A DNA stretch of 64,000 nt from Phreatobacter stygius (lineage in GTDB: Bacteria; Pseudomonadota; Alphaproteobacteria; Rhizobiales; Phreatobacteraceae): NCBI RefSeq assembly GCF_005144885.1, contig NZ_CP039690.1, positions 3,795,001 to 3,859,000 on the forward strand, written 5' to 3'. Positions 53,776 to 55,125 of this stretch are shown here, piece by piece. The stretch's first letter is position 1, and each line of letters starts with the position of its first letter. Made by a program: the position numbers and the translations under genes. The notes under the pieces are model-generated. The model searched no databases. It saw only the letters and a list, made by a program, of their open reading frames with translations, and was not told where the DNA came from.

Positions 53776-53789
53776 GGCAGGGGGAATCA

Positions 53790-53840
53790 ACCCTCTCCCA
53801 AAGGGAGAGGGTGGCGCCGTCAGGCGCCGGGTGAGGGGCG
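53790..53840. repeat. Intact copy of the palindromic intergenic repeat
   Basis: CCCTCTCCC and GGGAGAGGG pair across AAA (53791-53811), followed by GGCGCC-GTCA-GGCGCC (53813-53828) and GGGTGAGGGG. This is the layout of the dispersed GAGAGGGTGG...CCGGGTGAGG repeat of alphaproteobacteria. It lies just after the LysR stop and may also act as a terminator hairpin. It is the undamaged form of the copy split by the IS110 element. Confidence 0.8.
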
Positions 53841-53899
53841 TAAGCCCTCAGAACTGATGCCGCCGCGCTTCCCGCATACCGTCTCATTCGGAGAGGGAC

Positions 53900-53932
53900 G
53901 ACCCCTCACCCGGCAGCTGACGCTGCCACCCT
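53900..53932. repeat. Left half of a second repeat copy, cut by the IS110 element
   Basis: The stretch reads as the reverse complement of the intact copy at 53790-53840 (CCCCTCACCCGGC, then a stem, then GCCACCCT) and stops at CT (53931-53932). The rest of the repeat resumes at 55104 on the other side of the element. Confidence 0.75.
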
Positions 53933-53949
53933 TGCATGTTTGCGGGACC

Positions 53950-54121
53950 GACTCAGCGCAGGCTGAGAGGTGCGTCGAGGCCGGTGGCCACCGGCCTCGA
54001 CGCGGATGTCCGGGACCGTTTCACCCTTTGGCTCAGCACCGCGGGAGAGCATGGTCCGGCCGTCCTCTGGCTCTTGTCCTGAACAGATGCTGGGGAGGAA
54101 GTCCCGTATGCAAGGCAAGGA
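53950..54121 (+). ncRNA. Predicted IS110 bridge RNA
   Basis: Ends are approximate. From 5': a small hairpin CTCAGC-GCAG-GCTGAG (53952-53967); a 32-base perfect palindrome (53972-54003, arm GCGTCGAGGCCGGTGG); a target-binding loop closed by GGACC (54013-54017) and GGTCC (54053-54057). That loop holds CACCCT (54022-54027, identical to the left target plus core) and GGGAGAG (54043-54049, complement of core plus right target). A donor loop follows, closed by CTTGTC (54073-54078) and GGCAAG (54114-54119). It holds ACAGATGCT (54083-54091, identical to the right end plus core) and ATGCAAG (54108-54114, complement of core plus left end). The last guide covers the transposase start codon. Confidence 0.75.
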
Positions 54122-55088
54122 AGCGTCCAAACAAGAGACCGAAGGCAAGTCTACCGTGGGAATCGACGTCAGCAAGAGCTGGCTCGACATCCACGTTCTG
54201 CCCGGCGGGGAGACCCACCGTTTTGCCAATGCCGAGTTGGGCATCCGGCAGTTGAAGCGCTGGCTTCAGCGCTTTGATCTGGCGCTGGTCGTGGTCGAGG
54301 CGACCGGCAAGTGGCACCGCCAGGTTCGCCGAAGCCTGCATGCCTCGGGCGTGCCGGTTGCCGTGGTCGATCCTTATCGCGTGCGCATGTTCGCGCGTGC
54401 CACGGGCACCTTGGCCAAGACCGACCGGCTCGATGCCCGCGTGTTGGCCCTGTTCGCGCGGGCCATGAACCCGGCCCAGCGACCGCCGGCACCGGAAGCC
54501 CTCGATGCGCTCAATGAGTTGGTCAGCGCCCGCGATGCGGCCGTCGGCGAACAGACAGCCCTCAAGAACCAGCGGCACGCGGTCACCGACAAGTTCCTGA
54601 TCCGCCATCTCGCTCACCGTCTCACCCGGATCGCCAAGGCTATCGAAGCCATCGCCGGCGAGATCGCCAAACGCATCGCGGCCGATCCATGCCTGGCCAG
54701 ACGCCACGACATTCTGATCTCGATCCCTTCGTTCGGCCCGGCGGTCGCCACGACCCTGGTGGCCGCCCTGACCGAGCTGGGGACCTGCAACATCAAACAG
54801 ATCAGCCTGTTGGCGGGACTAGCCCCGATCGCCGATGATTCCGGTGAACGACAGGGCGTCCGCGTCATCTGGGGCGGACGCTCCCGGGTGCGCCGCGTTC
54901 TCTACCTGGCGGCGCTCTCGGCCACGCGCTGCAACGCCGACATGAAAAGTTTCCACGACCGCCTGATCGCCAAGGGCAAGAAGCCCAAATGCGCCCTCAT
55001 CGCCGTGGCTCGAAAGCTCGTCGTCCTCGCCAACACCCTTATCGCTCAGGACCGCACTTGGGCCACTCACGCTCCAAAACAGGCTTGA
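54108..55088 (+). CDS. IS110-family transposase (DEDD recombinase)
   Basis: A 326-residue recombinase with a RuvC-like N-terminal domain: GIDVSK (D20), VVVEATG (E64) and AKTDRLDARVLA (D106, D109), the DEDD set. A coiled-coil linker (about 135-200) leads to the Tnp_20 domain with IPSFGPAVATTLVAALTELG and APIADDSGERQGVRVIWGGRSRVRR, where S245 is the likely nucleophilic serine. A GGGGAGGAAG site precedes ATG 54108. All catalytic residues are present, so the element is probably active. It would use the upstream RNA to pair donor and target. Confidence 0.93.
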   Translation: MQGKEASKQETEGKSTVGIDVSKSWLDIHVLPGGETHRFANAELGIRQLKRWLQRFDLALVVVEATGKWHRQVRRSLHASGVPVAVVDPYRVRMFARATGTLAKTDRLDARVLALFARAMNPAQRPPAPEALDALNELVSARDAAVGEQTALKNQRHAVTDKFLIRHLAHRLTRIAKAIEAIAGEIAKRIAADPCLARRHDILISIPSFGPAVATTLVAALTELGTCNIKQISLLAGLAPIADDSGERQGVRVIWGGRSRVRRVLYLAALSATRCNADMKSFHDRLIAKGKKPKCALIAVARKLVVLANTLIAQDRTWATHAPKQA

Positions 55089-55103
55089 CCCGAAACACAG
55101 ATG

Positions 55104-55125
55104 CTCTCCCTTTGGGAGAGGGTTT
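55104..55125. repeat. Right half of the repeat copy cut by the IS110 element
   Basis: CT-CTCCC-TTT-GGGAGAGGG resumes the interrupted repeat directly after the element. With 53900-53932 it restores one full reverse-oriented copy. Confidence 0.75.

Follow-up and report, generated by a model that had tools for sequence, protein, structure and literature searches.

Whether the left end of an IS110-group element in Phreatobacter stygius encodes a bridge RNA of the type known from Escherichia coli IS621, with four guides readable against the insertion site and the element's own ends, is the question raised by this locus, which lies in a 64,000-nucleotide stretch of the genome analysed here as a whole (the window). 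The left end very probably does encode a bridge RNA working as in IS621, the mechanism being judged in its entirety, and the element is a real addition to the known bridge RNA family, not a new kind of system. Support for the IS621-type reading put forward in the original prediction comes from a covariance model that fits relatives, from targets that follow changed guides, and from a homologous recombinase. The element, its coding sequence and its ends are placed as follows:

53931..55105, + strand: IS110-group element bounded by the CT core on each side, its length being 1,173 bp without the second CT core
54108..55088, + strand: DEDD recombinase of 326 aa (PF01548, PF02371), from ATG at 54108 to the TGA ending at 55088
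53931..53937, + strand: left end CTTGCAT (core plus right donor), CTTG[CT]AT in nearly all relatives and CTTGTAT in IS621
55097..55103, + strand: right end ACAGATG (left donor), present in copies and relatives

These boundaries are set by eight near-identical copies, which have exactly 53931..55105 in common and diverge beyond it. All eight are full length in the 7.35 Mb single-contig genome, differing from one another by 0–3 bases over 1,172 bp at only three variable positions, with open reading frames in 8/8 and a bridge RNA region that is the same in every copy (no differences; identical covariance scores). The CT core flanks each of the eight copies on both sides, and joining the flanks restores an intact repeat that has only one copy of the core. 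The coding sequence leaves non-coding ends of about 175–176 bases upstream and 15 downstream, and its product retains all five catalytic residues (D20, E64, D106, D109 and S245) and is homologous to the recombinases of IS621 (E 1e-31) and ISCro4 (E 8e-30), both solved relatives. No close match to the recombinase was found at strict thresholds in the other 11 Phreatobacteraceae genomes (family search, 12 genomes), and a class search of 385 genomes at strict thresholds returned it from its own genome only; the nearest named element is ISMno29, with 80.7% DNA identity.

The original prediction placed four guides in the left end in the order of IS621-type bridge RNAs, and all four were recovered exactly, in that order, together with the targets that they read:

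54022..54027, + strand: left target guide CACCCT, with a possible 5′ extension to 54019 via a U-G wobble
54041..54049, + strand: right target guide, core part GGGAGAG at 54043–54049, extended to GCGGGAGAG
54050..54051, + strand: CA, a putative handshake guide able to pair with G at donor position 7 and T at position 6 under IS621 geometry (PMC11208158)
54083..54091, + strand: left donor guide ACAGATGCT, conserved in relatives only as far as ACAGAT(G)
54108..54114, + strand: right donor guide ATGCAAG, contiguous, without the two-base bulge of IS621, its ATG being the transposase start codon
53927..53932, + strand: left target CACC plus core CT, from the copies and their flanks
55104..55110, + strand: core CT plus right target CTCCC, in 8/8 copies

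CACCCT is the same as the left flank through the core (53927–53932), and the right flank CTCTCCC (55104–55110), read on the opposite strand, gives GGGAGAG; ACAGATGCT is identical to the right end of the element at 55097–55105, and the left end CTTGCAT (53931–53937) gives ATGCAAG when read on the opposite strand, each as had been claimed. To the further claim that every guide includes the CT core it must be added that the left donor guide does not keep its CT in relatives, where other bases follow ACAGAT(G). The proposed match lengths of 6, 7, 9 and 7 bases are those of the window copy, whereas the right target match reaches 8–9 nt at 7/8 copies, where CTCTCCCG or CTCTCCCGC pairs with guide GCGGGAGAG; the exception is the window copy with CTCTCCCT, the sole one of the eight sites lacking G after CTCTCCC. 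Dinucleotide-preserving shuffles of the 175-base left end held all four guides in 0/100,000 cases and three guides in 2, with the left donor guide alone occurring in 0.045% and the right donor guide in 0.5%; the absence of any shuffle with all four indicates that the matches are not due to chance. The donor guides ACAGATG and ATGCAAG match their own ends in the window and in relatives, the donor ends hardly varying within the clade. The putative handshake pairs, CA with G7 and T6 in the window, are only partly present in relatives. In Rhizobium sp. NZLR1 p3 (L127), ACAGATT replaces ACAGATG at the right end and A replaces C immediately after the right target guide, a single case of paired changes that would fit the handshake pairing described for IS621.

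Recognition of the chromosomal site differs between the two sides. The right flank is CTCTCCC in 8/8 copies, with CTCTCCCG in 7/8, whereas the four bases before the core on the left are CACC at four sites, CCCC at two (L002, L008), GGCC at one (L003) and CCCT at one (L005). Across these eight sites, the uniform right flanks and variable left flanks show recognition to be strict on the right and looser on the left; an exact CACC+CT match is found at 4/8 sites, and one or two mismatches in the four core-adjacent positions at the other four point to loose pairing of the left guide. The flanks of the window copy, once joined, read ...CTCACCCGGCAGCTGACGCTGCCACC-CT-CTCCCTTTGGGAGAGGG and match an uninterrupted, inverted copy of the repeat lying about 80–150 bases from the element:

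53781..53850, − strand: intact, unoccupied target repeat copy, whose reverse complement holds uninterrupted CCACCCTCTCCCTTTGGGAGAGGG, equal to the joined flanks

The 13-mer CCACCCTCTCCCG occurs exactly 36 times in the genome, compared with once for a reversed control, and this abundance, together with the agreement between joined flanks and intact repeat copy, argues that the element inserts into a dispersed REP-like palindrome. IS621 and ISPpu9 likewise insert into REP-type sequences (PMC11208160, PMC8450116).

The folding of the left end was assessed on an alignment of 14 left ends, comprising the window sequence and relatives with ≥46% protein identity, from which a consensus emerged with a 5′ stem-loop, a target-loop stem and a small hairpin within each loop:

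53947..54125, + strand: predicted bridge RNA, its start placed from the putative −10 and its end from IS621 geometry
53972..54003, + strand: 5′ stem-loop, with changes on both sides in 13/13 pairs across relatives
54004..54018, + strand: target-loop stem, 5′ strand, pairing with 54052–54065, with both-sided changes in 7/14 pairs and 97% of cells paired
54052..54065, + strand: target-loop stem, 3′ strand, partner of 54004–54018
54030..54040, + strand: small GG...CC hairpin between the target guides, in the same place as the IS621 stem-loop
54092..54105, + strand: GGGGAGGAAGTCCC hairpin GGGA/TCCC, conserved, also holding the likely Shine-Dalgarno sequence

Built from these 14 left ends, the covariance model called for by the original prediction fits across relatives with compensatory change, and matches the window at 53932–54118 with 172.6 bits, the window sequence being itself part of the model. 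Cells were paired in 94.1% of cases compared with 78.6% after shuffling (14 left ends; left-end/guide complementarity excluded), both-sided changes were seen in 20/33 pairs against 12.6 (0/500 shuffles as good), and double-change cells numbered 76 against 25.4; sliding the partners by one column reduced pairing to 45–52%. The GG...CC hairpin offers no test of covariation, as its GG and CC are invariant in the 14 sequences, and the donor-loop pairs CCU/AGG and GGGA/UCCC are present and almost invariant. Closing stems had been described for both loops, and compensatory changes uphold that of the target loop; the covariation test did not uphold the outer donor-loop stem, whose own strands paired no better than swapped ones (mean −6.38 and −6.49 kcal/mol, respectively) and which is not claimed as a conserved stem. 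The single-sequence minimum-energy fold, which did not cleanly give the two-loop form, was set aside, and the RNAalifold pairing of columns 1–7 with 201–207 (left end with right donor guide) was rejected as RNA structure since it is the guide–donor complementarity.

Beyond the clade, the model matches the left ends of numerous IS110 elements at greater distance (L025, 70 bits; L029, 56 bits) and finds matches in 26/397 genomes of the order (Rhizobiales). An Rfam scan of the window returned no family at threshold, and the clade model gave no match to the IS621 RNA; kinship with the latter is accordingly read from architecture and protein. Planctomycetales bacterium ZRK34 carries seven copies of a distant IS110 element on one chromosome (L070, L072–L077), with a model match of 52.7 bits at the L070 left end, the one copy scanned, and this set would be good material for comparing guides with targets. 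Minor features of the left ends include an extra hairpin in the window, CUCAGC-GCAG-GCUGAG at 53950–53966, 5′ of the stem-loop, whose conservation in relatives is not obvious, and, in L043 (1291–1330), an 18-base piece of the left end, CTTGCATATTGGATAGGC, present in two tandem copies, with an additional G ahead of the core at the right end of the same element.

Within the P. stygius genome every copy has the same recombinase and the same RNA, which leaves protein and RNA specificity inseparable there. This speaks for a rival reading in which the recombinase picks its target by reading DNA and the RNA resembles the site because the left end took up target sequence long ago. Elements with different targets bear on this reading, as they match those targets at the same RNA positions. 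Among related elements, guides co-vary with flanking targets as the original prediction required, own guides outperforming swapped ones for both: the left guide agrees with its own left target at 3.65/4 core-adjacent positions and with swapped targets at 2.27 (13 guide classes, kinship ignored; 0/200,000 shuffles as good), and the right guide at 5.01/6 and 3.11 (8 guide classes, kinship ignored; 3/200,000 shuffles as good), with the guide register placed by hand from the CT preceding the GG hairpin. ISMno29 pairs guides UCUCCCUCU and GGGAAAG with targets CTCCCTCT and CTTTCCC; Rhizobium elements with guide GGGAUGAG have target CTCATCC at five different sites; and L047/L048 combine guide UCUUGCCU with target TCTTGCCT. 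As the RNA is also what sets specificity in IS621 (PMC11208160), target choice by the protein is very improbable here, and targeting by the bridge RNA is the reading retained.

A narrower comparison is provided by a genome of the same genus (G279), which holds a sister element with 90–91% identity at the right end and 86% at the left; the draft assembly is interrupted at each of its roughly eight copies (loci L172–L191; contigs C3, C8, C14, C23, C25, C27, C30 and C38, and further C39, C41, C46, C47, C50, C75 and C78); these breaks prevent the left and right flanks of individual copies from being joined. One base distinguishes the sister's right target guide, GGGUGAG, from GGGAGAG in the window element, and its right flanks read CTCACCCG in 7/8 and CTCTCCCG in 1/8, a CTCACCC site in place of CTCTCCC (Fisher p = 0.0014 against the 8/8 CTCTCCC of the window element). 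Since CTCACCCGGC is the other arm of the same repeat, a single altered guide base accompanies a move from one arm to the other. Sister elements in one genus thus occupy different arms of one dispersed repeat, as if retargeted by one guide base, a natural comparison that tests bridge RNA targeting cleanly in organisms other than E. coli.

For transcription, promoter, RNA ends, RNA–protein binding and chemistry, we infer a scheme on the pattern of IS621, in which the left end would encode a bridge RNA of about 180 nt and the element would be excised as a circle, right end joined to left end, to build a promoter absent from the integrated form:

55085..55090, + strand: putative −35 TTGACC, overlapping the stop codon TGA
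53935..53940, + strand: putative −10 CATGTT, 17 nt after the right-end TTGACC, forming a promoter only in the excised circle

This putative TTGACC-17-CATGTT promoter across the circle junction would transcribe the RNA, and has the same 17-nt spacer as TTGCAG-17-TATTAT across the junction of IS621; TTGAC lies 14 nt before the core in relatives with a visible right end, with TTGAT in L045. The recombinase would bind the bridge RNA, whose target-loop guides CACCCU (left) and GCGGGAGAG (right) would pair with the two strands at the chromosomal site and whose donor-loop guides ACAGAUG(CU) (left) and AUGCAAG (right) would pair with the circle junction; strand exchange at the CT core would then lead to insertion at CACC-CT-CTCCCG in the dispersed palindromic repeat. 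The −10 CATGTT is weak and a poor match to consensus, as might be expected had the element kept an intact bridge RNA but ceased to be active in this host, silent or self-limited, as a fossil of the mechanism; such a reading is unlikely, as the near-identity of the copies with their identical RNA regions, their eight open frames and the lack of a close match in the other 11 family genomes jointly suggest recent spread.

Comparison with known systems places the element nearest to IS621 (E. coli; PMC11208160, PMC11208158; L169) in mechanism, with an RNA in the left end, the same order of 5′ stem-loop, target loop and donor loop, guide strands with a CT core, a small hairpin between guides, a homologous DEDD recombinase, REP-type targets, a left end CTTG(T/C)AT (CTTGTAT in IS621, CTTGCAT here) and a right end ACAG.... 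In the plasmid record of IS621 (L169), the left target guide ATCGGGCCT is followed by one base, a GG...CC hairpin and the right target guide, and the donor loop contains ACAGTATC and ATTTGCAAG, an order of parts that is the same here. The IS621 right donor guide AUUUGCAAG has two flipped-out bases, whereas AUGCAAG is contiguous; the IS621 start codon lies about 12 nt past the right donor guide, whereas here it lies inside it; and the right target guide of 7–9 nt is longer than that of IS621 and reads a different target. With its distant IS621 homology, contiguous right donor guide and longer right target guide, the element is a candidate programmable recombinase system with targeting rules of its own. 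ISMno29 (Methylobacterium nodulans pMNOD02, L124), 80.7% identical in DNA over its full length and 74.5% in protein, shares the architecture, donor guides and start-codon overlap but differs in its target guides, UCUCCCUCU and GGGAAAG, with matching changed targets; no mention of it was found in the literature searched. The seekRNA of IS1111/IS110 elements (PMC11187229) is similarly element-encoded with two short target matches; IS1111 elements, however, have a long right end that carries the RNA 3′ of tnp, whereas here it lies upstream, and a right non-coding end of only 15 bases does not fit the IS1111 group and its seekRNAs.

The position of the right donor guide brings RNA and message together, as AUGCAAG holds the transposase start codon in frame in 19/19 intact relatives, its AUG sharing a reading frame with the conserved GIDVSK motif at a spacing of either 15 or 17 codons (19 intact sequences), GGGAG lying shortly upstream in 20/20 sequences, and several intact sequences having no other in-frame start. 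The ribosome-binding sequence in a hairpin directly ahead of the start codon recalls ISPpu9 of Pseudomonas putida, an IS110-family element inserted in REP sequences, with two small RNAs, Asr9 (antisense) and Ssr9, and a structured leader thought to bury the ribosome-binding site (PMC8450116), and could be taken to make the left end a mere structured 5′ leader controlling transposase translation, with incidental guide matches. There is next to no chance that this is the full account, since incidental matches would not follow insertion sites across relatives or the one-base change of the sister element, and a leader role is in any case compatible with the guide role that we favour.

As read from the sequence, the overlap of guide and start codon is present, and bridge RNA and recombinase mRNA would share one stretch that includes the start codon, ribosome-binding site and first codons. 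Its regulatory effect is proposed tentatively, as a possible but somewhat doubtful reading: a transcript might act as guide or as message, not both at once; recombinase that has bound its own guide might block its own translation; and the need for AUG might freeze the right donor guide. The overlap offers a testable idea of how such elements might limit their own activity. Among the papers on bridge RNAs and seekRNAs that were searched, no main text takes up a guide containing a start codon, although the search made in one of these studies took in 50 bases of coding sequence. In L027 and L028, the ATG looks out of frame, so that translation probably does not begin at the guide AUG there. The more distant L021, L022, L023 and L025 have, 5′ of tnp, the donor guide ATGACAAG, and a second start codon occurs further on in the frame set by its ATG.
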